This document shows, piece after piece, positions 3,360 to 32,208 of a DNA stretch of 32,208 bases. The stretch covers positions 1 to 32,208 of the forward strand of contig JAJEGS010000010.1 of the NCBI GenBank assembly GCA_022819745.1, read 5' to 3'. Below the pieces are notes generated by a model. The model saw only the letters and a list, made by a program, of their open reading frames with translations, searched no databases and was not told where the DNA came from. This stretch comes from Candidatus Latescibacterota bacterium (GTDB taxonomy: Bacteria; Latescibacterota; UBA2968; UBA8231). Within the stretch, counting starts at the first letter, position 1, and each line of letters begins with the position of its first letter. The position numbers and the translations under genes were made by a program.

Positions 3360-4249
3360 TGTTCTTCCAATCCGAGGTGTTGTTGCACGGACTGGGCCGG
3401 AAGCACGAGCGCTGTGGCCTCTTGGCCTGGCAAGAGTGCGTACGCGGCGAATTGGTCTTCGTCTCCAGTGCGGGTCAGACGCAGTTCAAAGCCGTCTGCG
3501 CTGTCCCAGGCTGTGAGTAGATGCTTGTTCTCGCCCTGGCGCAGCGAATCGGCCCGCGTTTGCACGACCTCCGCTAGGGCGGCTGTGATGACCGGCCCGG
3601 CATCGCTTTGCGCACGCTCAGGGTCAGGACCCAAAAGCGGCGCTAAATGCTGACGCCAGTAGGCCATGTCTTCCTCTTTCATCCTCAGAAAAGTCCAAGC
3701 CTCGGGCTCGTCTTTTGCCAGCAGGGACTTGTGAAGCTGGTAGAAGAGCGAACCGTCTTCTAGGGCCATTTGCGCGCCGACGAGGGCGCGGAGATACGAA
3801 CCGTGGTCGGGTACGATAGCTTGGGTTAGCAACAAGCGGCCCTGCTCGTAGATCTGCAGGGAATAGGCGAGTTCGCGTAGGTTTTCCGGGCTGAGGAGAT
3901 CGGGCTGAAGGGCGGAGTCGCGCCGTGCGACCGCAAAGAACGCCGCGTGGGTGCCGTGGTACTGAAGTTGGTAGTGGTTTTGCAAGACCGGCAGCGGGGT
4001 TTGGCGCGGCTCTAGCGGCACCTCGGCCAGCGAGTCGGATAGGGCCATGCGAGTCTGCCGGCTGGCGAGAATGCCCTGCCAGAGCGCACCTCCTGGCTGG
4101 CGTTTGGAGTTTTGCTGCATCAGGTATTGACCGATGTAGCGGGCCACGTATTGGGTTCGGTACTCAAGCAAAAAAAGTACGCCAGCAGCCCCCAAAGGCA
4201 CCAGCGCACACAGGGCTATGCGGACGAGGCCGTAGAGCAAGGATAACAT
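3356..4249 (-). CDS. Hypothetical membrane-anchored protein, PBP partner
   Basis: A 297-residue protein I do not recognise. Residues about 7-28 form one hydrophobic helix and the remainder is soluble and rich in Leu, Gln and charged residues, consistent with a single-pass anchor and a periplasmic domain. There is no lipobox and no catalytic motif I can name. It is the first gene of a two-gene unit with the class A PBP and overlaps it by 4 bases (ATGA). Coupling to a peptidoglycan synthase suggests a regulator or scaffold of that enzyme, by context only. The opposite-strand lipoprotein gene starts 112 bases away, so the gap at 4250-4361 should hold divergent promoters; I could not identify clear -35/-10 pairs there. 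Confidence 0.7.
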   Translation of the reverse strand: MLSLLYGLVRIALCALVPLGAAGVLFLLEYRTQYVARYIGQYLMQQNSKRQPGGALWQGILASRQTRMALSDSLAEVPLEPRQTPLPVLQNHYQLQYHGTHAAFFAVARRDSALQPDLLSPENLRELAYSLQIYEQGRLLLTQAIVPDHGSYLRALVGAQMALEDGSLFYQLHKSLLAKDEPEAWTFLRMKEEDMAYWRQHLAPLLGPDPERAQSDAGPVITAALAEVVQTRADSLRQGENKHLLTAWDSADGFELRLTRTGDEDQFAAYALLPGQEATALVLPAQSVQQHLGLEEQ

Positions 4250-4361
4250 AGCGACACAATAAGTTCAGGACAGCTACTTGTCAAAAGTGCTTGCCCATTT
4301 TGGGCGGCTAATGGTACTTTTGGCTGAGAGGCGATTAATCTATCTGGGGAGGTAGAAAAAT

Positions 4362-5348
4362 ATGAAACGCCTAAAATTTGCATGGATTGCCGTCGTCGTT
4401 GGGTTGTGGCACTGCGGCGACGAGGGCGAAAAGGGCACCAGTCCCGTCGCGCCCATTGATTCTCCGCAGACACCGCGCGCGCTAAGTGTGGAGCGCATCG
4501 GCGATGGCGAGGTATGGCTCAATTGGCAGGCTGTCGAGGGCGATGGCGAGGTGCTCTACGTCGTTTATCGCTCGGTCGGAGACGACGCGACCGTGGCCAT
4601 TGACTCCACGTTTGAGACCCGATACAAGGATCAGGGGCTACGATACGAGCTGGAGTACACCTATCGAGTAACCGCGATAAACGGCGGCGGCGAGAGCAGC
4701 CCCTCGAATGCCGTCAGCGGCCAGCCCCTCAACAGCTTGACGCCGCAGCGGCCGATCGCGGTGCGCGCCGTTGCGCATCACCTCGAAGTACTCGGCCAGC
4801 TCGACATCGCACTCGATTGGGCTGACAACGCGGAGACCGATCTCGCAGGTTACCGGGTCTATCGCTCGACTGAGCAGGGTTTCGCGCCGACCCTTGGGCA
4901 TTTGCTCATGCAGGTGTCGGGGCCGAGCTTCATCGACGCGGAGATCGCGGTGGGCACGGTGTACTACTACCGAATTACGGCGATAGATCTCGGCGGCAAG
5001 GAAAGCAAGGCCTCCGAGGAAGTAAGCGACGTCGCACTACCCTCGCCGGTGCCGTTGGTCCCGGTCGCCGGAGAAGAAGCCGCGGCACCGTTGACCTTTA
5101 CTTGGAATCGCTTGCCCGAGGCGCGCGCATTCCGGGTGATCGTCACTACCTCACTGACCAGTGGCGAAGTGTCAGACATACCGCTGACTAGCGATACCAC
5201 GGCCGTATTTACCGGTCGCATTAAGGATGGGGGCTTGGTCGCGCTCGAACCCGGACAAGTGTACTACTGGAAGGTTGTGGCCAGTACGCACGCCGAGGGG
5301 ATTGAGAATTCGGTGAGTCGGGTCGAGAGTTTTAAAGTGGCTGAGTAG
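4362..5348 (+). CDS. Fibronectin type III domain lipoprotein (putative)
   Basis: 328 residues. The N-terminus has Lys/Arg, a hydrophobic core and a Cys at position 18 followed by an acidic, Ser/Pro linker, as in lipoproteins, but the residues before the Cys (L-W-H) are a poor lipobox because His at -1 is unusual. Two fibronectin-III repeats are visible at about residues 36-122 and 127-222, each with W-x-A near the start, a Y-x-V-Y-R strand (YVVYRS, YRVYRS) and a Y-x-Y-R-[VI]-T-A-I strand. A third beta-sandwich-like region with YYWKVVAS fills 225-328. It is probably a surface or periplasmic binding protein; no enzyme motif is seen. GGGGAGG upstream of the ATG is a strong ribosome site. The stop lies one base before the next gene, so co-transcription is likely. 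Confidence 0.75.
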   Translation: MKRLKFAWIAVVVGLWHCGDEGEKGTSPVAPIDSPQTPRALSVERIGDGEVWLNWQAVEGDGEVLYVVYRSVGDDATVAIDSTFETRYKDQGLRYELEYTYRVTAINGGGESSPSNAVSGQPLNSLTPQRPIAVRAVAHHLEVLGQLDIALDWADNAETDLAGYRVYRSTEQGFAPTLGHLLMQVSGPSFIDAEIAVGTVYYYRITAIDLGGKESKASEEVSDVALPSPVPLVPVAGEEAAAPLTFTWNRLPEARAFRVIVTTSLTSGEVSDIPLTSDTTAVFTGRIKDGGLVALEPGQVYYWKVVASTHAEGIENSVSRVESFKVAE

Positions 5349-10388: not shown

Positions 10389-11627
10389 TCACTTGATCGT
10401 TTGCCCAGTCGCGGGCGGTTCAATCTGGTCTAATAAATGTATGACGTCTTTGGGCTGAACTTTGTTGCGAAAAAAGAAGACTCCGCCGGGTACGTTTTTA
10501 AAATCGTCCTCGCTGACATTGAGGTTGGAAGAGACGGCCACGAGCAAGTCCTTGCGCTGGGCTTGGCGCAGCTTTTCCAGCTTACGGCGCAGATACTCGG
10601 GCCGCCAATAGCCCATGATTTCCAAAAGCGCTATGCGGCCGTCGGGATGGCGGAAGGTGAAGTCCGGGATCATCACGGTCTCTTTGAGGTTGACCACTTC
10701 GCTTTCCCGCTCTAGCTGCCATTGGGTTTTGGCCTTGACGAAGCGCGCGGCAAACGTCTCCTCCAACAGCGAATCGTACAAAGTCTGATCCTTGTAATGC
10801 GACACTAGGCCCGATTGATCGTCGAGGACGAACTGCTGGCGGCGGCCGTCCTTGCGCAAAATGTCGGCCTGCATTGACCAGCGGGTACACAGCAACAGGG
10901 CCGGGAGAAAAATTGCCATTTGCAGGCCGTATTTCTGCGAGTGGCGGAACATGCTCACTGGGCCGTCGAGTCCGATCTCATAGCCGGCATCGACATCGCC
11001 TTCGATGGTGTGGATCAGCCGGTAGAACTTGATGAATTTGAAAAGCTGCTTGTAGCGTACCGGCAGGTTGCGATACACGCTCAGGCGCAGGATTTCGCAG
11101 CGATAGAGCATGGCTTGGGCCAGTGCCACGTTGTAGCGCAGCAGCAACTCGTTGGGCGAGGGCGCGGCAAAGGTGGCAAGCTGGTGATTTTCAGGCAGGT
11201 CGGCGTACAGCCCTGTGAGCACGTCTTCGCTGCTGATCTGGTGTTTGAGAGCGACCTGCTCCAGCAAATCTTCGCGTTTGACTGGATAGATGAGGCTGGT
11301 CTCGCGGACGACCGGATGGTGGGCGCGGGCCAGCGTAAAAACGGCGTGGCGCAATTCTTCGGGAGGTTGGGGACTATCGACGTGGAATTCGCAGTAGTGG
11401 TCGCAAAGTAGCTTGGCTAGGCCGCGCTGGACGCGGTAGTCGGTGCGGTCCCCGGCGAGCAGGTCGAGGGCGCGTTGTAGCTCTCGTCGGGTTTTGCCTT
11501 GGTGTTCGATGTGGATCTCGATGAGCGCTTGGGCTAGGTCGATGAGGACTGGGTCCTCGACATCGACATAGCGCGGTTCAATGTAGGGGCCACGCGAGCG
11601 GGTCAGCAGGAGGTCTGAGGTCAGCAC
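10389..11627 (-). CDS. DUF790 family nuclease, Bax1-like
   Basis: 412 residues opening with MLTSDLLLTRSRGPYIEPRYVD, the start typical of DUF790. The C-terminal part has a restriction-endonuclease-like core: PDFTFRHPDGRIALLEIMGYW, where the Asp after Pro and the Glu of LEIMG are the likely metal ligands, followed by YLRRKLEKL. In archaea the homologue Bax1 is a structure-specific nuclease partner of XPB helicase in a nucleotide-excision-type repair step. Here it follows the XPB gene with a 5-base gap, reproducing that pairing. Its reaction in bacteria is inferred from the archaeal pair. Confidence 0.85.
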   Translation of the reverse strand: MLTSDLLLTRSRGPYIEPRYVDVEDPVLIDLAQALIEIHIEHQGKTRRELQRALDLLAGDRTDYRVQRGLAKLLCDHYCEFHVDSPQPPEELRHAVFTLARAHHPVVRETSLIYPVKREDLLEQVALKHQISSEDVLTGLYADLPENHQLATFAAPSPNELLLRYNVALAQAMLYRCEILRLSVYRNLPVRYKQLFKFIKFYRLIHTIEGDVDAGYEIGLDGPVSMFRHSQKYGLQMAIFLPALLLCTRWSMQADILRKDGRRQQFVLDDQSGLVSHYKDQTLYDSLLEETFAARFVKAKTQWQLERESEVVNLKETVMIPDFTFRHPDGRIALLEIMGYWRPEYLRRKLEKLRQAQRKDLLVAVSSNLNVSEDDFKNVPGGVFFFRNKVQPKDVIHLLDQIEPPATGQTIK

Positions 11628-11632
11628 GGTGC

Positions 11633-12988
11633 TTACTCGTAGGCTTCGTGGCGGCGGCGGCGGTCGCTGATGCGGTCTTCGACCGTGTTCTTGGAGACCA
11701 CTTCGTAGAGCACGGCTTCCTTGCCTTGGCGACGGCGGAGGATGCGCCCGAGGCGCTGGACGTGCTCGCGGATGGTCCCCGAGCCGGAGAGGACCACCGC
11801 GACGTTGGCTTCGGGGATGTTGACGCCCTCGTTGAGCACTTTTGAGGCGACGAGGGCGAGGTACTCCCCTTTGTTGAAGGCTTCGAGGATGGCCTTGCGC
11901 TCTCGCGTGCGAGTGCGGTGGGTAATGGCCGGGACCAAGAAGGTGCGGGAGATCTGATGGACGGTCTCGTTGTCGTTGGTAAAAATCAATACGCGGTCGC
12001 GCGGGTGGGCCTTGAGGATGTCTTCGAGGACGCGGATTTTTGCTGTCGCGCCGAGGGCGATCTGACGGTGGCGGCGGTAGGCGTGCATGGCGCGCCGGCC
12101 GCTGGTGCTTTTGGCCGAGAGCATGACGAAGTGCCGCCAGCCATCTTTGGTGCCGAGGCGGATGTTCTTGTCGGCGAGGAAGGCTTGGTACTCATCGCGG
12201 GCGGCCTCGTATTGGGCGCGCTCTTCAGCGACCATATCCACTTGGCGGCGCTCGACGCGATAGTCGGCCAAGTACTCGCCGGACAAGGCGCGGATGCCAC
12301 GCTCGTAGGCTATGGGACCGACGAGGGTGTCGAGGAGTACGTGGCGGCCATCGGCGCGCTCTGGTGTGGCGGTCAGCCCGAGGCGGTAAGGTGCTAGGCA
12401 CATTTCGGCCGCGTGGCTGTACATTTCGCCGGGCAGGTGGTGGACCTCGTCGAAGACGATGAGGCCGAAGCGATTGCCGTAGCGGTCCATCTGCATGTAG
12501 GCGCTGTCGTAGGTGGCGACGGTCAGATCGGCTAGTTCGTGATAGCCGCCACCGAGCAGGCCGACCTCGACGGCAAACGAGCGGGTGAGCAGGTCGTACC
12601 ACTGGTTCATCAGGTCGATGGTCGGCGCGACGACGAGAGTGCTGCGCTGGACTTCTACCATAGCCATGAGCGCGACTTGTGACTTGCCCGATCCCGTGGG
12701 CAAGACGACCACGCCGCGACAGCCGTGCTGTTGCCAAGCGGCGATGCTTTCGGCTTGGTGAGGGTGCGGTTCAGGCGCGGTGTGCAGTTGCAGGGAAAGG
12801 GTATTGTAGCGCGGGGCTGTATTCTTGAATTCGACTTCGTGCCGTTTGAGGTGCTCTACGCTTTCGCGGTAGAAGTGGGCTTGGGCACGCCAGTGATCGA
12901 CGCGCGGGTCCCAGACAAAGGCCGGGGGCGCGTCTGGGCCGACGTAGTCGCGCAGGAGTAGGGTGCCTTCTTCAAAAGTCAGACGCAT
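11633..12988 (-). CDS. XPB/Rad25-like superfamily 2 DNA helicase
   Basis: I chose the ATG at 12988 (MRLTFEEG, 451 residues). A longer frame from 13123 adds 45 residues that look non-coding and would overlap the divergent DUF362 gene. An N-terminal domain (about 1-70) is followed by HPHQAESIAAW and Walker A LPTGSGKSQ (about 99-103), the DEVHH box (180-184), TATPERADG, and helicase motifs V-VI including NEGVNIPEA and QRLGRILRRRQGK. This is the arrangement of XPB-type DNA-unwinding enzymes of archaea and some bacteria. Together with the DUF790 nuclease it probably forms a DNA-repair unit. No clear Shine-Dalgarno site precedes either start, so the start is moderately certain. Confidence 0.88.
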   Translation of the reverse strand: MRLTFEEGTLLLRDYVGPDAPPAFVWDPRVDHWRAQAHFYRESVEHLKRHEVEFKNTAPRYNTLSLQLHTAPEPHPHQAESIAAWQQHGCRGVVVLPTGSGKSQVALMAMVEVQRSTLVVAPTIDLMNQWYDLLTRSFAVEVGLLGGGYHELADLTVATYDSAYMQMDRYGNRFGLIVFDEVHHLPGEMYSHAAEMCLAPYRLGLTATPERADGRHVLLDTLVGPIAYERGIRALSGEYLADYRVERRQVDMVAEERAQYEAARDEYQAFLADKNIRLGTKDGWRHFVMLSAKSTSGRRAMHAYRRHRQIALGATAKIRVLEDILKAHPRDRVLIFTNDNETVHQISRTFLVPAITHRTRTRERKAILEAFNKGEYLALVASKVLNEGVNIPEANVAVVLSGSGTIREHVQRLGRILRRRQGKEAVLYEVVSKNTVEDRISDRRRRHEAYE

Positions 12989-21815: not shown

Positions 21816-22388
21816 ATGACGAGTTCAGAAAGTGATAGGGACATGTTACCGAGCACGTGGTCGGCCGGGCAGATCGTCGTACGGGCGGTCGAGGTAGCGC
21901 AGACGTCGGCGCTGCATGCTGCGGTTACGGAATGCGTGGATGTCGTCGCGCTCGATCCTACTTTTGCCGAGGTGCCCGAAAGCACGGTCGGTGAGTTGGT
22001 GGAGCAGTCGGTAACGGACGAATCGCAGGAACGCGGCTTCCGCATGAGGAGCATTCACGTCGGACCGGCTGAAGAGCTGGCTGGATACTTTCACTTAATG
22101 GAGGATGTGCCCAACGTAGGGGACGCTTGGCTCTCGATCCTGGCGATCCGGCCGCGATTCCGGCGCAGCGGCGTCGGCACGACACTCATCAAAAGCCTCA
22201 AGAGGGTGCTGGCCGCCGAGGATTTCCGTTTCGCCTTGGCGCGCGTCTATCTGGCCAATGTTCCGGCCTTGCAGTTCTGGACTCGACTGGGTTTTACCGA
22301 AATCGTTCCTCATCGCGGTGACTACATCGGTCACGATCTAGGGAGATCCTGTATCGTCCTGCGGGCGTCGCTTGGTAGAGTGCTGTGA
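21816..22388 (+). CDS. GNAT family N-acetyltransferase
   Basis: 190 residues. The acetyl-CoA binding motif A is AWLSILAIRPRFRRSGVGTTLIKSL, with the R-x-x-G-x-G loop (RRSGVG), and motif B is FRFALARVYLANVPALQFWTRLGFTEI. The substrate is unknown. The ATG at 21816 has AAGG 6 bases upstream; an in-frame ATG at 21843 is the point where similarity to the relic copy becomes clear and is an alternative start. The relic at 20,940-21,064 and this gene flank the VapBC-type pair. TacT-like GNAT toxins are about this size, but there is no adjacent DUF1778 antitoxin, so an ordinary acetyltransferase is more likely. Confidence 0.85.
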   Translation: MTSSESDRDMLPSTWSAGQIVVRAVEVAQTSALHAAVTECVDVVALDPTFAEVPESTVGELVEQSVTDESQERGFRMRSIHVGPAEELAGYFHLMEDVPNVGDAWLSILAIRPRFRRSGVGTTLIKSLKRVLAAEDFRFALARVYLANVPALQFWTRLGFTEIVPHRGDYIGHDLGRSCIVLRASLGRVL

Positions 22389-22413
22389 GGCGCATGACTG
22401 CATCATCAGAAAA

Positions 22414-23835
22414 TCAACGTGTCACCGGAATGCCCAGCAAGTGGTCGGCACGCTCTTTCAGGTACTCTGAATACCGCAATTGATTGGCTAGGTCATCGCC
22501 CTCAAGGCCACTAGCTATGAGGGTTTTTATTTCTCGGTGCGCCACTGGAATTGAACGCCAAGGCACAACGGCGTTGAGTGGTGACAGGAGCCGTTTGCGG
22601 ACCTCTTCGCTAGCAGCGCACCGGTACCTAGTGTCAAGCAAATTAGGCTGCTCAAGATAGATGAGTCGAAACGCTAGGCGACGATACCTCGCGTCACGGA
22701 GTTGAAGGGCTAGCTCCGGCCGTTCCTCCCAAGGGACTGTGTGAAAACGCTGCATGAGAACTTCATCTTGAGACAGCGGAAATCCGTGCTCGTAGATCTG
22801 CTCCTCGACGTGCGGTGACGGTGGATAAGTTGGCTCTGCGGCCTGTGCTGCTTTTCGGAGTCGTTCCAAGAAAAGTCTGTCCTCTTGGAGTTGAGCGACT
22901 CGCTCCAAGACTTCGGCTTCGTTTTCGAAAGGGGCAAGATGTTCTTGAGTAGCATCATAAAGCGCCCATAGCATCGGTGCCGCGTTCGTGCGAACTGTCA
23001 CGATCGGTCGCGTGGTTTCTTGGCAGAGAGAGATCAGGGCATCGTCCGACATTTCCCGAAGCGTGTCGAGGTCCTCACTTACATCAAGGCAGTAGTACCG
23101 TATCGCGAGTTCACTGTTCTTGCCGATTGGGGTCACAATGCGCACGCGAGGGTTATTGCCGAAAGTCTCCCATATCAAGAAGGCGTCTTCTTCAGTGATG
23201 AAAGATTCAACGCTTGCCTTCTTGCTAAATCTCAGACATTGGGACCAGACTTCAGGTGCGCGATGTCTGATGAGCTTGCAGAGCGCGAGCGTTGTCGAGA
23301 CATCGGCCATGGCGTTATGCGACGATGGTACCGTAATACCGTTCGCTTCGGCGAGCGCCTTGAGTTTAAAGATGGTGCGACCATTCTCGTCGATTGCTGG
23401 CTTTAACACATCGGGCCTCAAAGTTGCCGTTATGCGACAAAGATTTAGAACGTCAGCTCGTGCGCTCCCCTGCGTGTTCGTTAGAAAGGGGTTGTAAAGG
23501 CATTGGTAGAATGCTTGGCGCAGGAATTCCTCGTCGAATGACAAGGAGTTAAAACCGAGAAATAAGGTTGGGCACCAGGACTCTAGGATACGGCGAGCCT
23601 CTGTGACCATCTCGTAATGCGAGGGCAACGAGTTATCTATGAGCTTCTCTATTCGATTCCCCGTCACATGGATCGCCTTTGGCGAAGGGATAACATGAGG
23701 CATCAGGCGGCACTGGGTCTGAAACTTTTCTTCAACCTTCAGTTCCGAGTCCGTACGGATGGCGGCGAATTGAACGACTTGATCAAAACCCTTCGTCAGT
23801 CCTGTAGTCTCGATGTCGTAGATGACAAAGCTCAT
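22414..23835 (-). CDS. ExoI-like DEDDh 3'-5' exonuclease
   Basis: 473 residues. The exonuclease core is at the N-terminus: IYDIETTG (Asp7, Glu9), FLGFNSLSFDEEFLRQAFY (Asp101) and SSHNAMADVSTTLALCKLI (His173, Asp178), a full DEDDh set. The flanking sequences (GFNSLSFDEE, KLKALAEANGI-x-x-x-x-HNAMADV) match exonuclease I (SbcB) better than DnaQ or oligoribonuclease. The C-terminal 280 residues correspond roughly to the ExoI SH3-like and helical domains. It should degrade single-stranded DNA 3' to 5'. It is the third gene of a coupled minus-strand operon and overlaps the ImmA/IrrE gene by 4 bases, which is an unusual setting for a housekeeping ExoI and suggests a defence or DNA-damage role. Confidence 0.85.
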   Translation of the reverse strand: MSFVIYDIETTGLTKGFDQVVQFAAIRTDSELKVEEKFQTQCRLMPHVIPSPKAIHVTGNRIEKLIDNSLPSHYEMVTEARRILESWCPTLFLGFNSLSFDEEFLRQAFYQCLYNPFLTNTQGSARADVLNLCRITATLRPDVLKPAIDENGRTIFKLKALAEANGITVPSSHNAMADVSTTLALCKLIRHRAPEVWSQCLRFSKKASVESFITEEDAFLIWETFGNNPRVRIVTPIGKNSELAIRYYCLDVSEDLDTLREMSDDALISLCQETTRPIVTVRTNAAPMLWALYDATQEHLAPFENEAEVLERVAQLQEDRLFLERLRKAAQAAEPTYPPSPHVEEQIYEHGFPLSQDEVLMQRFHTVPWEERPELALQLRDARYRRLAFRLIYLEQPNLLDTRYRCAASEEVRKRLLSPLNAVVPWRSIPVAHREIKTLIASGLEGDDLANQLRYSEYLKERADHLLGIPVTR

Positions 23836-24362
23836 ACGTACTCTCCAAGTGAGCTCAATCGATAACGCATGGCAGCATCGCTCACCTTAAAGCGCTTGGC
23901 CAGCGCCATCACAGCTTTGTCATCCTCAAGGTCAACAGAACGACCTTCGAGCGCTGATATCAAAAACTCGGTCGGCACGAGCAGTTCGGCTGCAAAAGTA
24001 TTCGCTTCGATTTCAATGGGATCAACGCCCTCAGCAGCAAGCGCATCACGTCGTAGAGAACCGAGATCAACGTGTACGGCATACTCAAGCTCACGGCGGT
24101 GGAGCTCAACGTGTGCCAGTTCGTGGGCGAGTGTGAAGCGCTGTCGAGTCGGCGCGTGCAGCGTGTTGACGCCTATAATCGGTACGCCGTCCCGAATATG
24201 TGCGAGTCCAGAGAGTTCACTATCGAGTGGGGCATACTCCACGCGTACCCCGCGGATCTTGGCGATGCGTTCGATAGGAACAGGCGCGGCCTTGACGCTG
24301 TGCTGGATGAGCAGTGCCTGCGCCGCATCTTGAGCTTTTTGCTTTCGGGGGGGGCGACTCAT
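23832..24362 (-). CDS. ImmA/IrrE-family metallopeptidase
   Basis: 176 residues with the zinc motif HELAHVELHRRE (His80, Glu81, His84) and a downstream Glu in EIEANTFAAELLVP (Glu119), the usual arrangement of ImmA/IrrE (COG2856) peptidases. These cleave XRE-family repressors in response to DNA damage or single-stranded DNA, as known for ImmA/ImmR, IrrE/DdrO and CapP/CapH. It overlaps the upstream XRE gene by 4 bases and the downstream exonuclease by 4 bases. Its natural target is therefore probably the XRE protein made from the same message. Confidence 0.92.
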   Translation of the reverse strand: MSRPPRKQKAQDAAQALLIQHSVKAAPVPIERIAKIRGVRVEYAPLDSELSGLAHIRDGVPIIGVNTLHAPTRQRFTLAHELAHVELHRRELEYAVHVDLGSLRRDALAAEGVDPIEIEANTFAAELLVPTEFLISALEGRSVDLEDDKAVMALAKRFKVSDAAMRYRLSSLGEYV

Positions 24363-24709
24363 GACGAACTCCTTCTTAGACGATCTTCTGCGAGGACTGA
24401 GGCAATCACATTTTCGACATCCGTTTGCTGCTGCGGATTCAAGGTCGAACCGCTGACCTTGATCTCAGGCAGGGGCTCCGGAGGCACCCAAGTTTCAGGC
24501 ACGAGATCCAGAATCGATTTGAGCTTGAGCGCGTTCACGAGCGCGAAGAGCTGATGCACCATGATGCGCTGACGGCCGTTTTCGAGATTGGCGAGTGAAG
24601 CTCTAGAAAGCCCCAGCTTTTCCGCGACATAGCTTTGGGTAAGGTCAAGCTCTCCACGGCGCTTCGCAACCTCCCGACCGAGGCGACGATAAAGTTCCAT
24701 ATCCGACAT
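24359..24709 (-). CDS. XRE-family transcriptional regulator
   Basis: 116 residues. An N-terminal helix-turn-helix (LGREVAKRRGELDLTQSYVAEKLGLSRASLANLENGRQRI, HTH about 22-45) is joined to a C-terminal part (LVPETWVPPEPLPEIKVSGSTLNPQQQTDVENVIASVLAED) that may hold the dimer region or the peptidase cleavage site. It is the first gene of the coupled XRE-ImmA/IrrE-exonuclease unit and is divergent from the ubiquitin-like operon, with 181 bases between its start and the TTGACA of that operon. It probably represses its own unit, and possibly the divergent one. Confidence 0.9.
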   Translation of the reverse strand: MSDMELYRRLGREVAKRRGELDLTQSYVAEKLGLSRASLANLENGRQRIMVHQLFALVNALKLKSILDLVPETWVPPEPLPEIKVSGSTLNPQQQTDVENVIASVLAEDRLRRSSS

Positions 24710-24847
24710 TACTATAAACTGATTCTTTTCCCGATGTGCGTCAAGCTGACGCCATATGTCCCTACATCTGGCCGTACCTGCTGCCCTCTAGACCGAAGAA
24801 CCTGCCGCAATATTCTGACCAAAATCACCGACTATCATATCAAATAT

Positions 24848-24864
24848 AATGTGTATGACACAAT
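24848..24864. promoter_or_regulatory. Possible XRE operator
   Basis: TGTGT-ATG-ACACA (24850-24862) is an inverted repeat, with one further complementary pair beyond a mismatch. It lies 28 bases upstream of the -35 of the Ubl operon, in the divergent intergenic region, where a regulator encoded next door might bind. Confidence 0.35.
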
Positions 24865-24890
24865 CATTTAAAAAATTATAGTGTTTTTCA

Positions 24891-24919
24891 TTGACATTTG
24901 ATGTCGCCGACTCTATACT
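24891..24919 (+). promoter_or_regulatory. Sigma70 promoter of the ubiquitin-like operon
   Basis: TTGACA (24891-24896), 17 bases, then TATACT (24914-24919), one base off consensus. Predicted start of transcription is near 24926, giving a leader of about 65 bases before the ATG at 24990. The region upstream is very AT-rich, which would favour strong transcription. Confidence 0.75.
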
Positions 24920-24989
24920 TAGAGCGATGTCGATGGGGATGGGCCTCATTGCACAACTGGCGCAGAGGACGCCGATGGAGGTCATTAAA

Positions 24990-25538
24990 ATGACAGATAG
25001 CATTTCCAAAAGAGATTCTGGTGTCTGTGGGAGTTCGCCGCAGGCCCACGGCAAGGTCTCGGTCCCGGTGAAATTGGATTACGCCAAGGAGCGGATCGTC
25101 GAGTTGGAGTTGGGCAGCCGCGTGACTGCGGTGCTCGAAATCGTCTCTGCCGAGCGCGGTTGCCGTGTAGAGGATCTGGTTCTGCTCCGCGAAGGTGAGG
25201 GTGAACTGTTGACGTCCGACCTCGTGGTCGACGCGAACTATCCAGACAAGTGCCGCCACCATGTTCATTACTTGGGTGAGGTGACAGTGACAGTCTATTA
25301 TCAGGCGGGTCAGCAGAGTCACATGTTCAAGCGATTTGAGTCCGTCAAGGATGTGCTGGCCTGGGGGATTGAGGCATTTGGCATCGACGGGAGCCTGGCA
25401 ACCGAGCTCGTGTTGGTGCGACATGGTCATAAGGACGAACTGCCCGAACGCGAGCATATCGGCCATCTGACGGGGAAGGACTGTGAGCTTGCGCTCGATC
25501 TGGTGCGTGGCGATATAGCCAACGGGAGTTCGTCGTGA
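24990..25538 (+). CDS. Tandem ubiquitin-like (beta-grasp) protein, Bil/Bub-type
   Basis: 182 residues from the ATG at 24990, chosen because GGAGG lies 8 bases upstream; a longer frame from a TTG at 24891 would begin inside the promoter. After a short tail, two domains of similar layout follow: about 22-95 (KVSVPVKLDYAKERIVELEL, then a helix SRVTAVLEIVSAERG and EDLVLLREGEGELL) and about 97-175 (EVTVTVYYQAGQQSHMFKRF, helix SVKDVLAWGIEAFG, TELVLVRHGHKDELPE). The second ends in CELALDLVRG, which resembles the last strand of ubiquitin (LVLRLRGG), followed by DIANGSSS. The call rests on this pattern plus the following E2, JAB and E1 genes. It would be the modifier attached to targets. There is no terminal Gly-Gly, so the tail may need trimming. 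Its stop overlaps the GTG of the E2 gene (GTGA). Confidence 0.75.
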   Translation: MTDSISKRDSGVCGSSPQAHGKVSVPVKLDYAKERIVELELGSRVTAVLEIVSAERGCRVEDLVLLREGEGELLTSDLVVDANYPDKCRHHVHYLGEVTVTVYYQAGQQSHMFKRFESVKDVLAWGIEAFGIDGSLATELVLVRHGHKDELPEREHIGHLTGKDCELALDLVRGDIANGSSS

Positions 25539-26011
25539 TTGCAGATCCCAGCATTGCCCGCGTCGCAGCCGACCTAGAGCAAGGCGACTTTCTCAGCGGT
25601 TGCGAAGCGGGTCGTTGGCGTATCATTGCCAACGAGTTCCCGATCCTAGACTTTACGATCTCCGCGACTGAGCCGGACGGTACTGCCAGTGAGTACGGAT
25701 TTCGGGCCGACTTATCGAATTACCCCGCTCAGGCTCCGAAGGTTCAGATTTGGGACCACAAACAGAACACCCCCCTTGCGGGTGATCGGCGGCCAAAGGG
25801 AGGCGCGCGAGTCCAGAAAACCTTCCAGTGTTGGGGATCAGACACTGTCTACCGCCCATGGGACCGGATGACCGGTCCCCATGGCAACAACGCCGCCACT
25901 TTTCCGCACCTTGCATGGAACTCCGAGCGGCGTCTTGTCTTCATTTTCGAGGATCTCCATGGTATCCTTAATAGCAACGCTCGCGCGCAGAATCTTCGGG
26001 TCTCCGCCTGA
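25535..26011 (+). CDS. E2-like ubiquitin-conjugating protein
   Basis: 158 residues. FRADLSNYPAQAPKVQIWD resembles the E2 strand and YP-x-x-PP motif of ubiquitin-conjugating enzymes, and QCWGSDTVYRPWDRM (Cys99, followed by a Trp in a P-W-D stretch) resembles the catalytic-Cys region of E2 folds. The final helix is short. The GTG start overlaps the Ubl stop by 4 bases, preceded by GGGAG. It would accept the Ubl from the E1-like protein and pass it to targets. The identity of the Cys is inferred from pattern. The sequence is too diverged for a firm subfamily. Confidence 0.75.
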   Translation: MIADPSIARVAADLEQGDFLSGCEAGRWRIIANEFPILDFTISATEPDGTASEYGFRADLSNYPAQAPKVQIWDHKQNTPLAGDRRPKGGARVQKTFQCWGSDTVYRPWDRMTGPHGNNAATFPHLAWNSERRLVFIFEDLHGILNSNARAQNLRVSA

Positions 26012-26480
26012 GGTTCTGTGTAGCGCAGGAGTTTGGCGTGCCGGTGTCGAGGAACTGAGGCGACGTGCTGGCGGTCGGCGTGAGAGTGGCGCTTTTCTGC
26101 TGGGCACTAAAGACGGAGCGCGGAGGATCGAGGAGTTCGTCTTCTACGATGACATAGATCCGAACGCACTGAAGAGCGGTATTGTTTTAATCGATGGCCG
26201 TCGACTTGGCGATCTCTGGACGCATTGTCGGAAGACCGAGCGTGTTGTTGTCGCCGATGTCCATGTTCACCCTGGTGGTTTCGGGCAGAGCTCTTCCGAC
26301 CGCGCCAATCCAATCATGGCTGAAGTCGGTCATATCGCCATTATCCTTCCGCACTTCGCAGCACGGAAAACCGGCCCCAGAGGTATCGGTGTATACGAGT
26401 ACCTTGGCTCCCGGCAATGGCAGGATCGTAGTTTCGACCGACCATCGCCGCTGCACGTAGGATGGTGGCCATGGCGCTAG
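25959..26480 (+). CDS. JAB/JAMM metallopeptidase (deubiquitinase-like)
   Basis: 173 residues from the ATG at 25959, chosen because GAGG lies 6 bases upstream; a longer frame starts at 25881 inside the E2 gene. JAMM ligands: Glu42 in RESGAFLLGT, His102 and His104 in VADVHVHPGG, and Ser111 and Asp114 in QSSSDRANP, with one residue fewer between the His and Ser than the canonical spacing. The rest (VGHIAIILPHF, GIGVYEYLG) follows the bacterial MPN pattern. It would trim the Ubl precursor or remove Ubl from targets. Its gene overlaps the E2 end by 53 bases and the E1 start by 19. Confidence 0.88.
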   Translation: MVSLIATLARRIFGSPPEVLCSAGVWRAGVEELRRRAGGRRESGAFLLGTKDGARRIEEFVFYDDIDPNALKSGIVLIDGRRLGDLWTHCRKTERVVVADVHVHPGGFGQSSSDRANPIMAEVGHIAIILPHFAARKTGPRGIGVYEYLGSRQWQDRSFDRPSPLHVGWWPWR

Positions 26481-27862
26481 ATCGTCAGATTGCCCGACTC
26501 GCGAAGATACTCGTCGACAGCGAGAACATTTCTTTTGATGAAGCCCAAGCTAGGCTGCGGACGCTTACTCTTGAAGTCGTTGTCGCGCCTGAGGCGGCGT
26601 CACCTGCTGCTCACGCCGCCACCCTCACGGCTGTGTCAGTAGCGAGTAGAACCTTCGTCGGCGGTGTAAGGGTCACGGGGGCAATAGACCAGCCTCTAAA
26701 TTCAGCCCTTCCATTGAGAGCGAAGAGTCTCGCTGAGGCCGCCATCCTAGCGGGTGCCTCCGGCTTCGACGGTTGCCCCTCGCGCAAGATCTTTGTCGGT
26801 ACGAACGAAGTACCGGCCGAGGCTTGGGCCGTCTCACCGTGGTGGAGCGGCTGGAGCGCGGGCATCGTCAAGCCGGGTGAAGCGCGTTGGGATGCAGGGG
26901 ACAATCCCCTGCCGGGCATTGCCGCCGGTGCCTTGGCTGTCGGTGCGGCCTTCGATGCTCAGCGGGGACGCTGCGGCGACATCGGGGTTGAGGTTGACCT
27001 TTGGCCTGTCAGGTCAGGCGAGATAGCCCCGCGGTTTGAGGAGGTGTTCTTGCCTGGAGCGCTTCGGCTCATTGGGTTGGGCAACTTGGGACAGGCCTTT
27101 CTCTGGACGCTTGCGGCGTTACCCTACGCGACTCCCGCCGATGTCTCGCTCGTCCTTCAGGATCGCGACAAAATTACCGAGGAGAATTGGGCTACCTCAG
27201 TATTGGTCAAGAGCGAGGTCTATGGGGTGCTGAAGACAAAAGTTGCGGAGCAATGGGCGTTGGACAAGGGCTTCGACGTCAGGAGGATTGACTGCCGTCT
27301 TCTCGCGACCGACCGGGTCGATGTCGATAATAATGATCCACGTCTCGCGCTCTCGGGGGTCGACAAGATCGAGGCACGCAAACTTATGGCCGAGGTCGGC
27401 TTCGACTGCATTGTCGATGCGGGGCTTGGGCGCACCTCGTCCGATTTCGACAAGTACCGCGTTACCGTGTTCGATCACGTTTACCCAATCGATAAGCACT
27501 TCGATAGGCAAGATGACACGCCTGTAGGAGGGGACTTTCCAAGAGGCGAAGCCTACCTGCGCCTTGAAGCGGAGATAGGACCGTGCGGGACAGCGGAGAT
27601 CGGCGGAGCCAGCGTTGCAGCCCCCTATGTCAGTGCCCTTGCAGCAGCGGTCGCAGTCTCCCGCGTTATCGCCGTCACTTCCGGTTGCGAATGTCCCATC
27701 AATGAAGTTGGAAGACTCTCACTTATAGCGGACCGCAAGCTTGCGGAGTTGACCGTGGTAGAGGGTCGCGGCATTCGTCACGCTGGGCACCCCGTCATCA
27801 GAAAAGCGGCACTTGCTGGTTGCAGTAGAACGGCTCTATCGGCGACGGGAAGGTCGTGGTAA
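26462..27862 (+). CDS. ThiF/E1-like Ubl-activating protein
   Basis: 466 residues. An N-terminal part (1-195) without a clear family is followed by an adenylating Rossmann domain: LRLIGLGNLGQAF (205-210), VLQDRDKITEENWATS (Asp234, Asp236, Asn242), KTKVAEQWA and a later loop EIGPCGTAEIGGASVAAPYV, where Cys375 is the candidate thioester Cys of E1-like enzymes. The N-terminal extension is not an E2 domain, unlike CBASS Cap2, as the E2 is a separate gene here. It would adenylate the Ubl C-terminus and transfer it to the E2. The ATG at 26462 overlaps the JAB gene end; a second ATG lies three codons in. Past about residue 445 the tail looks low-complexity, so a late frameshift is possible. Confidence 0.85.
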   Translation: MVAMALDRQIARLAKILVDSENISFDEAQARLRTLTLEVVVAPEAASPAAHAATLTAVSVASRTFVGGVRVTGAIDQPLNSALPLRAKSLAEAAILAGASGFDGCPSRKIFVGTNEVPAEAWAVSPWWSGWSAGIVKPGEARWDAGDNPLPGIAAGALAVGAAFDAQRGRCGDIGVEVDLWPVRSGEIAPRFEEVFLPGALRLIGLGNLGQAFLWTLAALPYATPADVSLVLQDRDKITEENWATSVLVKSEVYGVLKTKVAEQWALDKGFDVRRIDCRLLATDRVDVDNNDPRLALSGVDKIEARKLMAEVGFDCIVDAGLGRTSSDFDKYRVTVFDHVYPIDKHFDRQDDTPVGGDFPRGEAYLRLEAEIGPCGTAEIGGASVAAPYVSALAAAVAVSRVIAVTSGCECPINEVGRLSLIADRKLAELTVVEGRGIRHAGHPVIRKAALAGCSRTALSATGRSW

Positions 27863-28025: not shown

Positions 28026-30638
28026 CTAGCAGGCGTCGCTACTCAGGAAATGCTCTGGTAGTTTCTTCCTCCACTCGCTCATTAGGATGAGCGAGCATTG
28101 AACGGTGGTGCCGTTATTCATGACAAGCTCCATCTCGCCAGCGGGAGTACAGTCATCCCATGTGAAGTTGTCGGACAGGAAGGACAGGAGTTCGCGCTTG
28201 TAGTAGGTATCGAGGTTATCGAGTTGATCGCCTTTGGTCTCAAGAACGGTGAGGCGATTTTCACTGCTGTTCGTTTGCGCGGCGAAGATGAAATCGGGAT
28301 AGATTTTGCTCTTCTTCCAGCCTTGGATGCCGTACTGTGCGCGGGCGACATTGCGGTGCCACCAAGTCAGTGCCTCCTCGCCATCGAGATACACGGCGAC
28401 TTCGCGCTCGTCTCGGTTTAGGTCGTTCTCGTAGACCGGCGCGAACAGACTTTTCTCTAAGGAACCTCCCGTCTTGCTAACAAGCTGGCGAGCGGTGTCG
28501 GCCTCCGTCGTTTCGATCTGAAAGGGCATTCGCCAGTTACGGCCGTCCAGACGTAAGCAGAACTGGATACGCCCTGCGGTGACCTCATCTTTGAAGAGGG
28601 CTTCAGCACGTGTGTCACGCTCCGCATCTAACCCCCTGCGCATCTCTTCAACGATAAGGCCGGCAAGCTGGCCCAGCTTTCTGTCGTCAAAACCGCGACA
28701 TCGAAGCGCGGCAACGAATCGCCCTACGATTTCACGTCCCACAAAGGGGTTCAAGACGATATCCAGCATCATGTGTACTGCATAGGTCGAATCGAAGGCG
28801 AGGATTTCGCTGCTCTCTGCGACCGTCTCTCCGACGAAGACTTCGTCCCCGTCTTCCGCCAGTCTGATCCGCTGCAACTGGCTATCGGCCGTCTGTGCGT
28901 TCTCGGGAATGCTGGCTGCGATGTCCTTCGGGTCGAAGCCCCGCCAATCAATGCGGGATAGGATGTCGGTCTCGTAATCCAGTTCACGGACCTCGGTGCC
29001 GTCCGTAATCATCACCTTTGGTAGGTAGATTTCAGTTGATGTGAAGCTAGGACGGCGGTCGATCTTGCGTGTCCCGGGTCCCGATTCGCCCGTATCTTCT
29101 TGGGAGACCTCCAGAACCAGATCGCTGAGACCGTCCTGCTCGAGCCCCTCCTTGATCGCTTCGACTACTGAGCGCGTTGCTGCATGATGAGTGATAATGT
29201 AGCATTCGTCGAGCGCCTCGACGCCAGTCTTCATGGCGCCCGGCTGGCGAAGGATACGGCCTACAAGCTGCGTTAACGCCTGTTTGTTCGTGCTGGCCGC
29301 TAGGGCACAAAGGATATAGGCGAACGAGCAATCCCAGCCCTCCTGAAGAGCCTGCTTGGTAATGATTGCCCGTACTTGATTTATCGGCGACAGCAGGTTC
29401 TGGTTTTCCGGCTGGTTCAGATCGTTCCGTTCGGCTGTCTTGATAGCGATCTCTGCCTCATCGAAACCAGCAGTCAGAAGCCACTCCTTGACATCCTCGG
29501 CGTGAATGCGGCCGCTTTCGCGCTGATCCGCACCGGTACGCTCAACCTGGATCAGCATGATTGGGCGAATATAGCGATCAGTATTGGCCCGGAGCTTGGC
29601 GGCTTCCGTGTCGAGCGTGTGCAATTTCTTGAGCGCGGCATCGAGCGTGGTTCGCCAATCGCTGCTCTGCCGGGGGTCGAGGTTCAAAGGCATCTTGATC
29701 ATGCCCTCGCGGTCTAGCTCCCGACCTGTAACCTCGACCAGTACATTGGCATAGCGACCCGGCTTCGGATTTTTGCCACGGCTCGGTTTCACGTCCTTGG
29801 GCGTCGCCGTCAATTCCAGCACGAAGCACGGATTGAAGCCGTAAAGCGTCTTGAAGGCGAGATCGGAAATTGCCCGATGCCCCTCGTCTAACACCACGAC
29901 CGGGCGGATGATCCGAAGGACATTGCCAAGTGAATCCTTCACCATCGGGAACATGTCGTTATAGGCGGCAAGGTTTGGCGTCCGATCCAGTACTTCCCTG
30001 TGCGCCTGCTGCTCGCCCTCGGGCGGGAAGAAACCGTGAACGTCTCCCCGATCTTGGAACATCTTCAGCGACTCTTGGGTCTCCCGGTTCGCCGATTGCA
30101 GCATCAGGAGCATGACGCAAAGGTTCGTTTCGACATCCCGTGCATCGAGCCGGTCGGTTTTCTCCATAATCCGCACGCGCCCGGCGGCGGCACGGTCGAG
30201 CGCCTGCCGGTAGGGATGCTGGCGGTCCTTTAGACGCCTGAGCGTCTGGCTGTAGATCGCCTCGTTAGGCACGATCCATAGGACGAAGCCCGTGTTCCGG
30301 TCGAGATACCGCCCCATAATGCGTGAGACGCCGGAGATGGCAAGCCAAGTTTTGCCGCCTCCGGTCGGCACCTTGAGTACCGCGTTAGGCACAGGACGGT
30401 CGCACCCATCTTTGCGTGGTGAAAATGGGCAATCGATGCGTGACGAGGGCAGCTTGCCTTCTGCCTTCATTGCCTTCCACGCTTCCTCTACAAAGTCGGG
30501 GATAGGCACGTCAAGGTCCGGTTCCTGCTCCGCGAGCGCAGCGAGCCTGTCTGTCCTCGTCTTCTTCTCCTTTACGATGTCTATGAAGGCGTCGAGTGCG
30601 GCGAGCACCCGGTCCTGATAGTCGAGTCGCCGTAACAT
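28026..30638 (-). CDS. Type III restriction enzyme Res subunit
   Basis: 870 residues, the length of type III Res. An SF2 helicase N-terminal half has Walker A in KVPTGGGKTW (Lys96), DEGH box VVVLDEGHRAI (251-254), LELTATP and QLVGRILRQPG (motif VI). A PD-(D/E)xK nuclease lies near the C-terminus: YPDFIF (Asp782) with LETKGDQ (Glu800, Lys802). Res translocates on DNA together with Mod and cuts near unmodified sites. It follows mod with a 3-base gap. All motifs look intact, yet mod is broken at its 5' end, so the pair is probably inactive unless Mod is supplied elsewhere; type III Res normally needs Mod for activity. Confidence 0.93.
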   Translation of the reverse strand: MLRRLDYQDRVLAALDAFIDIVKEKKTRTDRLAALAEQEPDLDVPIPDFVEEAWKAMKAEGKLPSSRIDCPFSPRKDGCDRPVPNAVLKVPTGGGKTWLAISGVSRIMGRYLDRNTGFVLWIVPNEAIYSQTLRRLKDRQHPYRQALDRAAAGRVRIMEKTDRLDARDVETNLCVMLLMLQSANRETQESLKMFQDRGDVHGFFPPEGEQQAHREVLDRTPNLAAYNDMFPMVKDSLGNVLRIIRPVVVLDEGHRAISDLAFKTLYGFNPCFVLELTATPKDVKPSRGKNPKPGRYANVLVEVTGRELDREGMIKMPLNLDPRQSSDWRTTLDAALKKLHTLDTEAAKLRANTDRYIRPIMLIQVERTGADQRESGRIHAEDVKEWLLTAGFDEAEIAIKTAERNDLNQPENQNLLSPINQVRAIITKQALQEGWDCSFAYILCALAASTNKQALTQLVGRILRQPGAMKTGVEALDECYIITHHAATRSVVEAIKEGLEQDGLSDLVLEVSQEDTGESGPGTRKIDRRPSFTSTEIYLPKVMITDGTEVRELDYETDILSRIDWRGFDPKDIAASIPENAQTADSQLQRIRLAEDGDEVFVGETVAESSEILAFDSTYAVHMMLDIVLNPFVGREIVGRFVAALRCRGFDDRKLGQLAGLIVEEMRRGLDAERDTRAEALFKDEVTAGRIQFCLRLDGRNWRMPFQIETTEADTARQLVSKTGGSLEKSLFAPVYENDLNRDEREVAVYLDGEEALTWWHRNVARAQYGIQGWKKSKIYPDFIFAAQTNSSENRLTVLETKGDQLDNLDTYYKRELLSFLSDNFTWDDCTPAGEMELVMNNGTTVQCSLILMSEWRKKLPEHFLSSDAC

Positions 30639-30641
30639 GAG

Positions 30642-32069
30642 TCAACTGCGGTCGATGCGATAGAGCGCGAAGGGCAGAGGCACGAACTCGACTGGGACAT
30701 TTTGATCGGCCAGCATCTTCTGACTGACATAGCGGGCTGCAGCAAACACCAAATGACGGTCTTCTGGCACTGTTACCGCAAACTCCTTCGCGCGGGTCAG
30801 TGTAAGAGCAGCATCGGGCGATTTCAGCCAGTCCAGATCAGCCTTGTAGATCAGCCAGACATGCTGTCCGTCAGCCTCTCCGAGATAAAAATCTGCCTCG
30901 CGTAGTTTCGCGGAATCAAGGGCGCGGTTGGTCGCCATATTGAAAAGTATTGCGCCAAGCTGTTCCCAAGGCGGCAGATTCTCGCCGCTGAGGAGTTGGT
31001 CAAGCTCCACCGGCTTGCCTAGGGTGCAATAGGTAAACGAACCGCCAAGACCCTCGGCCCATTTGTCAACCGACTTCTCACCAGTGACAATCAACTCGCC
31101 GTTCTTGACCTGCTTTTTGACTCGGTCGTACTCGTGGCCGTACAGGTTCTCGATCTGCCCAATTTTTTCAATCAGATTTCCCGCCTTTCGTAGCTTATAC
31201 CAAGTGATCTTCTCTCGCATCAGTTCCGTTCGTTGCGTGCCTGTGAAAGCATAACCATTGATGACACGGCGAACCCGCTCGGCTGTCAGTTGATCGGCAT
31301 AGTCTTCCATCTCGACGAGAATGAAACGGCGGTTGCCGCCGTCGCGCCTGTTGGTTTCAAGAACGGCTTCAGCGGTCGTCCCGGATCCCGCGAAAGAGTC
31401 AAGAACTATGGCGTTTTTACTAGGGTGTTGCTCTATTACAAACTGAACAATTTCGGGAGGTTTTGGAAAATCGAGGTCTCGGCTACCGTCTCGGTTGCCC
31501 ATGATCCTCTCAAGGGCATCTGTGCCATTCCGTGTAAAGATCGGCCGATCTACAACGCTGGACACGTTCGTACGACTCCCCATTTCAGACAAAAACACCT
31601 TCTCCCTTGGTCTACCGGATACATCTGCTGGCCAAAGAATTTTCCCTTCCGTAATCAATTGCGACATTGTCTCTGGCCTATATCTCCAGCCGCGGTTAGG
31701 GCATCCGTAGTTTATTCCTGTTTCGGGATTTATTAAATCAAAGTGAAGGTTTGGGCGTCCCTCCTTTGATGCTAGCCCCACCATATTGCCGCTTGACCAC
31801 GGTCCTCGCTCATCTTGGTCGGGATTCGAGTAGTTCGTTTCGAGCCGCCCTTCGCCGGAGATTTTTTTACCGAAAACTGAAATATACTCGTGATCGTTAG
31901 ACATCCCGCTTGTATTTCTGTTGTCTTTATTCTGCCTTGATTTCCAAATAAATTGGCCAATGAAATTTTCTTCTCCGAAAATATCTCTCAGCATCTCCAT
32001 AAGTCTCGAATTTTCAATATCGTTATTCGAGACAAATATCAGGCCATCGTCCGCCAATAAGTCATGCAG
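30642..32069 (-). pseudogene. Type III DNA methyltransferase Mod, 5' end removed by an IS
   Basis: About 476 residues remain of a beta-class adenine methyltransferase of type III systems. The frame is open to the IS boundary, reading LHDLLADDGLIFVSNND, and meets an in-frame TAG exactly where the IS terminus CTAAGTACACGACA begins (32,070); a TTG at 32057 would be the first usable start. Present are the region after motif IV and motif I in VLDSFAGSGTTAEAVLE (about 222-228 from the TTG). In this class motif IV (DPPY) lies N-terminal of what is left, so the catalytic motif has been cut off. The intact protein would be some 100-200 residues longer. Confidence 0.85.
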
Positions 32070-32208
32070 CTAAGTACACGACAGTAATGTAAGTTGTGGT
32101 ACGGCCCTGCTTTAGGTTTTATTTGCAATCGCCCAAGATTGCATTTAAATCCTAAATACAGGAGCCGCACCGTGCTTATTCATATGCTAAAGAAAGCCCT
32201 CATGCAAG
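32070..32208 (+). mobile_element. 5' end of an IS4-like element (partial)
   Basis: The terminus CTAAGTACACGACA matches the inverted ends of the remnant at 19,212-19,653 at 13 of 14 bases. Inside lies a hairpin with arms TTTAGG/CCTAAA and GCAATC/GATTGC, then AGGAG (32160-32164) and a GTG at 32172 opening a transposase frame (MLIHMLKKALMQ) cut by the window edge. The layout (AGGAG, 7 bases, GTG, then an M-LKKA-type start) parallels the remnant transposase. The element disrupts the mod gene. Confidence 0.75.
32172..32208 (+). CDS. IS4-like transposase, N-terminal start (partial)
   Basis: Twelve residues are visible (MLIHMLKKALMQ), beginning with GTG after AGGAG at 7 bases. The similarity to the start of the remnant transposase (VNCMNSLKKA) supports the call; nothing else of the protein is in the window. 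Confidence 0.5.
   Translation, partial: MLIHMLKKALMQ

Follow-up and report, generated by a model that had tools for sequence, protein, structure and literature searches.

A bacterial ISG15-like operon with an E2-like protein that carries tryptophan at the conserved cysteine position, next to a capH-capP-exonuclease cassette

Introduction

Ubiquitin-like conjugation is taught as a thioester hand-over from E1 to E2 to target. Bacterial ISG15-like (Bil) systems, which protect against phage by tagging tail proteins, encode a ubiquitin-like protein (Ubl; BilA), an E2 (BilB), a JAMM peptidase (BilC), and an E1 (BilD). Bub operons likewise have Ubl, E2-like, JAB, and E1 genes, and Bub pathways use oxyester chemistry. 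Here we describe an operon at positions 24990 to 27862 of a 32,208-nucleotide stretch of contig JAJEGS010000010.1 (assembly GCA_022819745.1, Candidatus Latescibacterota bacterium); we call the whole stretch the window. The operon shares with Bil the four components and their order, a tandem Ubl, a JAMM peptidase, and a two-part E1 with a conserved cysteine. It differs from Bil in having Trp109 in place of the E2 cysteine, in the capH-capP-sbcB genes that diverge from it, and in a short tail after the C-terminal glycine of BilA. Neither the gene order nor the N-terminal extension of the E1 is new; the new point is an E2 without a conserved cysteine. We found no cysteine-less Bil E2 in the literature searched, which did not extend to the primary Bil papers, and one may already be in print.

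Results

The four bil frames are open and overlapping on the forward strand: bilA (24990 to 25538; 182 amino acids, ending ..RGDIANG-SSS), bilB (25535 to 26011; 158 amino acids), bilC (25959 to 26480; 173 amino acids), and bilD (26468 to 27862; an N-terminal domain followed by a ThiF-type adenylation domain). Their products matched, in A-B-C-D order, the PADLOC models BilA (3e-35), BilB (2e-46), BilC (9e-61, computed on a longer frame from 25881), and BilD (6e-116), and by its components and order the operon is almost certainly Bil. The bilC start at 25959 is the one common to relatives, and bilD has an alternative ATG start at 26462 that gives 466 amino acids. BilB, an E2-like protein, also matched Pfam PF24702 (DUF7665; 5e-23), the E1 matched ThiF and the JAMM protein Prok-JAB, both under the curated cutoff, and BilA, which had no Pfam match up to an E value of 1, matched the Bil models in searches in which no Bub model was used by name.

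A preceding sequence-only reading of this DNA had located the four genes and called them a Bil-type operon, and our coordinates and model matches bear out both claims. It had also taken the gene order and the separation of E1 and E2 as signs of divergence, but both are standard for Bil. A 195-residue N-terminal extension of the E1, which it described as being of unknown function, is rejected as a new domain because positions 3 to 429 of the 453-position BilD profile cover residues 4 to 423; a review describes the N-terminal part of BilD as an inactive adenylation domain (PMC11354881). The extent that it gave for the operon held for the four bil genes but left out the flanking capH-capP-sbcB genes, seemingly part of the same unit.

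The departure from Bil lies in BilB. We compared 122 BilB sequences, namely, that of the window, that of L001 (L and G numbers denote related loci and comparison genomes), and the best 120 of 310 homologues, which were 70 to 96% identical to the window protein. Position 109 (codon at 25859 to 25861, forward strand), the position of the conserved cysteine in Cys-type Bil E2s, was Trp in 122/122 rows, and Y106, R107, R111, and H116 were likewise found in every row. The E2 active site had previously been assigned to Cys99, but this residue is not conserved: the position held Cys in 31 rows, His in 30 (that of R. anhuiense among them), Gln in 21, and other residues in the rest. Cys23 was present in 81 of the 122 rows. 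With His, Gln, Arg, Val, and others standing in at these two positions, we reject both cysteines as the E2 active site on grounds of conservation.

Beyond these close homologues, we gathered 48 loci with the window included, 42 of them from genome contigs through an E1 alignment search and the others from plasmids. The variable position of the Y-x-P-[x]-[D]-R motif in BilB was Cys in 23 loci, Trp in 22, and Val, Ser, or Tyr in one each, and a two-type profile search listed 71 further BilB proteins, 61 with Cys (59 counted by script plus two misread YxPC rows corrected by eye) and 10 with Trp, both samples being drawn outward from the window and neither being a census. The cysteine of YLPCDR is the sole one shared by all 23 Cys-type loci and lies in the motif CLYLPCDRxxIEGH (L029 and those like it), with Glu at +6 and His at +8. 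The window has YRPWDR instead; in the window-type motif, VYRPWDRxTGPH, Trp replaces Cys, the Glu is absent, and the His is retained. No other Cys, Ser, or Thr reached 95% conservation in BilB of the 22 Trp-type loci, and Tyr106, which does reach that level there, is equally conserved in Cys-type BilB. The operon therefore belongs to the Bil family by its components and lies outside its catalytic-E2 type, with Trp109 where Cys-type Bil E2s have their conserved cysteine. To judge from these alignments, BilB is very probably a noncatalytic E2. Since the catalytic residue has been exchanged for one invariant residue in an operon that is otherwise constrained, we regard BilB as a pseudoenzyme with a retained role rather than as a product of decay. 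The cysteine position is occupied by Ser in L046, by Val in L038, and by Tyr in L051, all of them outside the Trp type.

The Trp-type loci also belong together by their E1s. All 22 Trp-type E1s fell on one side of a branch of the E1 tree (support, 97/88), and the distribution of the Trp and Cys types on this tree needed one change, versus about 16 for shuffled labels. L033, whose E1 is broken off and for which no BilB turned up, and L045, whose contig piece carries none, are left out of the tree, and the placement of L061, a long-branch row, is less sure. The Trp-type rows are mostly from Pseudomonadota, with metagenome-assembled genomes (MAGs) labeled Acidobacteriota (L025) and Verrucomicrobiota (L012) among them. 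L012 and L013, from MAGs labeled Verrucomicrobiota and Methylocystaceae, have identical E1 proteins, reflecting either recent transfer or misbinning. The 23 Cys-type loci (for example, L028 to L037 and L057) resemble the window in gene order and, where tested, in Pfam and PADLOC families; they have YLPC(D) where the window has YRPW(D), and their BilA mostly ends at Gly, whereas that of the window is tailed. The PADLOC BilB model gave 109 to 156 bits for six Trp-type proteins and 198 to 213 bits for five proteins with Cys or Ser.

In contrast to BilB, the E1 and the peptidase keep their catalytic residues. The E1 adenylation motifs (G205-x-G207, D234, K258, and D301) were present in 50/50 aligned rows, as was Cys375 (codon at 27584 to 27586, forward strand), the presumed thioester cysteine and the candidate of the earlier reading. 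A stricter text pattern found the E1 cysteine motif in 106 of the 120 listed E1 homologues; we prefer the aligned counts. Given the apparently noncatalytic E2, Cys375 is apparently the only visible thioester former. Of the JAMM ligands proposed for BilC, the Glu and the HxH pair (E42, H102, and H104) were conserved in 43/43 rows, and the Q-S-xx-D motif was seen by eye in the alignment. BilA ended in ..NG in 22/22 Trp-type loci, with a tail after the Gly in 19 of them, and the window protein (..DIANG-SSS) has such a short tail. Among 10 Cys-type BilA proteins read, 9 ended exactly at Gly (7 of these as ..RVEG), and that of L058 was tailed. Six otherwise Trp-type operons (L017, L018, L019, L021, L022, and L024) have a BilA with a single ubiquitin-like domain, and in L027 a further BilA-like match, a weak one, lies beyond bilD on its downstream side (4221 to 4514). 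At L001, the public record annotates an antisense open reading frame where bilC lies (11507 to 11872), and bilC is absent from the annotation.

Structure models agreed with these assignments at the level of folds. The model of BilA and a fold search gave two β-grasp domains, as expected from the earlier reading, and the BilB model had a UBC fold with a fold match to a solved BilB (8tz0_C). Searches by phmmer and with profiles gave no relevant match to the solved bacterial chains of E1, E2, or Ubl, and only BilC gave one (solved BilC 8tyx_B; weak, E value of 1e-3); for this reason we drew no residue-level map to 8tz0. The catalytic residues of BilB are listed in a review as Cys138, Glu144, His146, and His151, and C109, E115, and H117 of L029 have the same spacing as the first three.

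The operon and the three genes that diverge from it most likely entered the genome in a single piece of about 5.4 kb, capH-capP-sbcB-bilABCD, because the seven genes are missing together at two empty sites and an 11-bp direct repeat stands at both ends. This repeat, TCATCAGAAAA, lies at 22403 to 22413 and at 27795 to 27805 (both forward strand), occurs exactly twice in the window (0.00 expected), and is present as a single copy at each empty site (L069 in G003 and L068 in G005). In a comparison with 11 genomes of the nearest genus, DNA to the left of the island matched all 11 (best row per genome, 75 to 94% identical), and no match was reported for 22414 to 27789, with at most 27 candidates scored per genome. 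The GNAT flank runs to window position 22375 in G003 and to 22374 in G005, followed by 31 and 33 bases, respectively, and then by matches from window position 27790 or 27791. These two are among five congener regions examined; the other three (L070 to L072) contain only the left flank, with neither right flank nor repeat, and are uninformative about an empty site. The last approximately 20 bilD codons, beyond the start of the right repeat, are most likely target DNA. Block insertion is the best reason for treating the seven genes as one unit. Family matches identified no recombinase among them, and the 400-base end stretches of seven related loci with both cassette and Bil operon contained no exact direct repeats of at least 10 bases; so far the 11-bp repeat is seen only at the window insertion. 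Sixty relatives searched for BilD gave only weak ThiF-type matches, in 7 of them; 47 genomes searched for BilB gave none, in a search with no control signal; and viral contigs searched with the BilB alignment gave no relative.

The three divergent genes overlap at their ends on the reverse strand. They encode a CapH-like helix-turn-helix repressor (24359 to 24709; Pfam HTH_3, 4e-11; PADLOC capH, 9e-6), a CapP-like ImmA/IrrE (M78) metallopeptidase with HELAH at residue 80 (23832 to 24362; Pfam PF06114, 6e-27; PADLOC capP, 4e-31), and an SbcB/exonuclease I-like DEDDh exonuclease (22414 to 23835; Pfam RNase_T, 4e-14, and Exonuc_X-T_C, 1e-13; PADLOC RTasSbcB, 2e-97) in which the motifs D-x-E, SFDEE, and H-x4-D are all present. 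Known CapH-CapP regulators resemble this arrangement in pairing a helix-turn-helix repressor with an M78 protease and in diverging from an immune operon; the window differs in having a third gene, for the exonuclease, in the same operon. One paper reports that CapW or CapH plus CapP accompanies 219 of 544 Bub operons and that CapP is activated by single-stranded DNA (ssDNA), and the word exonuclease occurs 0 times in its main text (PMC13373217). The literature searched contained no mention of an exonuclease as a third CapH-CapP gene, although one may be in print.

Between the two operons lies a candidate CapH operator, the inverted repeat GCGTCAAGCTGACGC (24738 to 24752; no strand assigned). 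The core GTCAAGYTGAC occurred in 9/9 intergenic regions between cassette and Bil operon, with 29 to 39 bases separating it from the capH frame edge, and was absent from four more distant cassettes (L051 to L054). Because the motif was scored on the sequences it came from, its shuffle control is biased in its favor; its real support is its spread over nine loci, two of which have identical E1s. A sigma-70-like promoter, TTGACA-17-TATACT, lies ahead of bilA (24891 to 24919, forward strand), one of four such sites in 451 bases, versus 0.7 ± 0.9 in shuffles. Control of bilABCD by CapH and CapP is probable.

The three-gene cassette was found at nine of the ten closest E1 rows (the window, L001, and L009 to L016), L012 being cut by the contig end within the exonuclease. 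At the other 12 Trp-type loci we found no exonuclease; seven of them (L017, L019, L020, L022, L023, L025, and L061) had an M78-like match upstream on the opposite strand. By tblastn, Cys-type Bil loci had no divergent M78-type match upstream. The cassette also adjoins the Bil operon of L051, whose BilB has Tyr, and the Bub-like operons of L052 and L053, in which a multi-ubiquitin Ubl is annotated, whereas the window proteins match Bil models instead. In L054, a Pseudosulfitobacter plasmid, it diverges from a CBASS-like nucleotidyltransferase-SLATT-DUF2235 operon. A plasmid search with the exonuclease gave 46 records, 40 of them listed, and 6 were inspected besides L001; L055 (28% identity) and L056 (broken) had no cassette.

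Discussion

We propose that this is an antiphage Bil operon of a lineage with a pseudoenzyme E2, working by a mechanism of which every biochemical step is inferred; we put the probability of this reading at about 0.6. DNA damage or infection would raise the level of ssDNA and activate the CapP-like protease, which would cleave the CapH-like repressor bound to the inverted repeat between the operons and so turn on bilABCD. BilC would trim the short tail beyond the C-terminal Gly of BilA, and BilD would adenylate BilA and then carry it on Cys375. From there BilA may pass directly from the E1 to the target amine, with no Cys on BilB involved; BilB would be a noncatalytic cofactor that binds the E1-Ubl thioester or selects the target, much as UEV proteins serve as noncatalytic E2-like cofactors, and BilC could later reverse the tag. 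If conjugation persists, direct discharge with a UEV-like BilB is the route we favor, because no thioester site other than Cys375 is visible; we consider discharge from the E1 a tentative proposal with somewhat less than even odds. By degrading ssDNA, the SbcB-like exonuclease might set the threshold for induction, a suggestion that we rate as less likely than not and whose lead is the DRT9 defense, in which host ExoI neutralizes a toxic ssDNA product (PMC12483538). The broadest version, in which a sizeable branch of bacterial Ubl pathways would need no conjugating enzyme but the E1, with a Trp pseudo-E2 as obligate noncatalytic partner, and would run here as a mobile seven-gene cassette with exonuclease-tuned ssDNA derepression, seems to us unlikely as a whole.

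Several observations weigh against the proposed mechanism or the structural argument behind it. We know of no Bil precedent for direct E1-to-lysine transfer. Foldseek gave no match under 1e-3 for the BilB model, which is weak at the active site (pLDDT below 50 at residues 113 to 117), and 8tz0_C was not reached from BilB by sequence, even with the two-type profile. W109 is equated with catalytic Cys138 on the basis of the family alignment and the matching C/E/H spacing, and the fourth residue, His151, does not match that spacing. As for the cassette, the exonuclease is present at 9 of 22 Trp-type loci (8 whole, with L012 cut), every one of them within the ten closest, a set in which L011 has no cassette; the three genes are thus not obligatory for Trp-type Bil.

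Other explanations of the missing cysteine differ in what they ask of BilB. Cys99 and Cys23 are both present in the window protein, and either could serve if the E2 were catalytic and conjugation of the usual Bil kind, but their loss in most or many of the 122 rows (31 and 81 retained), with His at position 99 in the R. anhuiense protein, makes that account very improbable. A better case can be made for a BilB that is catalytic through a noncysteine nucleophile, forming an oxyester at, for example, Tyr106 or Thr113: Tyr106 is shared by every Trp-type and every Cys-type locus, none of the 35 rows of alignment A2 departs from Thr113, and in other loci Ser, Tyr, or Val takes the place of the Cys. 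Across the Trp type more widely, however, Thr113 gives way to S, A, G, A, and A in L023, L025, L026, L027, and L061, respectively, and Tyr106 is kept equally beside Cys and so is probably structural, which leaves a noncysteine nucleophile improbable.

The Trp-type system might instead no longer tag other proteins, with E1-bound or E1-conjugated BilA acting as the signal and BilB as a regulatory subunit. Retention of the E1 and JAMM residues alongside loss of the E2 Cys would suit such a system, but the C-terminal Gly of BilA (..NG) is retained, followed by a short tail in 19/22 Trp-type loci, and the peptidase residues are conserved, features that fit processing and deconjugation; we think this unlikely. 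Loss of a catalytic Cys through a single residue is also a common mark of decay, but an operon losing its E2 function would hardly keep Trp109 invariant in 122/122 rows and throughout the 22-row E1 branch with all four frames open, and we give decay very little credence.

Kept under constraint with an invariant Trp for the E2 cysteine, the Trp-type operon would show what roles a noncatalytic E2 can have and whether an E1 alone ligates, and whether the Trp-type system still attaches its tag to proteins is a testable question. Defense-system models label the Trp and Cys types alike as Bil, which calls for caution in their use. That capH-capP-sbcB accompanies Bub-like and CBASS-like operons as well as Bil suggests a common control module that senses ssDNA and brings along an eraser of that signal.

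Neighboring genes

Downstream of bilD, on the reverse strand, lie Type III restriction-modification genes (28026 to 30638 and 30642 to 32057; PADLOC REase_III, 2e-176, and MTase_III, 1e-144). The start of the mod frame aligns to positions 125 to 202 of several MTase_III models, and its N-terminal part is seemingly missing. The final segment of the window (32069 to 32208) is a multicopy repeat in the nearest-genus genomes G011 (up to 96%) and G008 (up to 91%) and probably marks where a mobile element adjoining the shortened mod gene ends.

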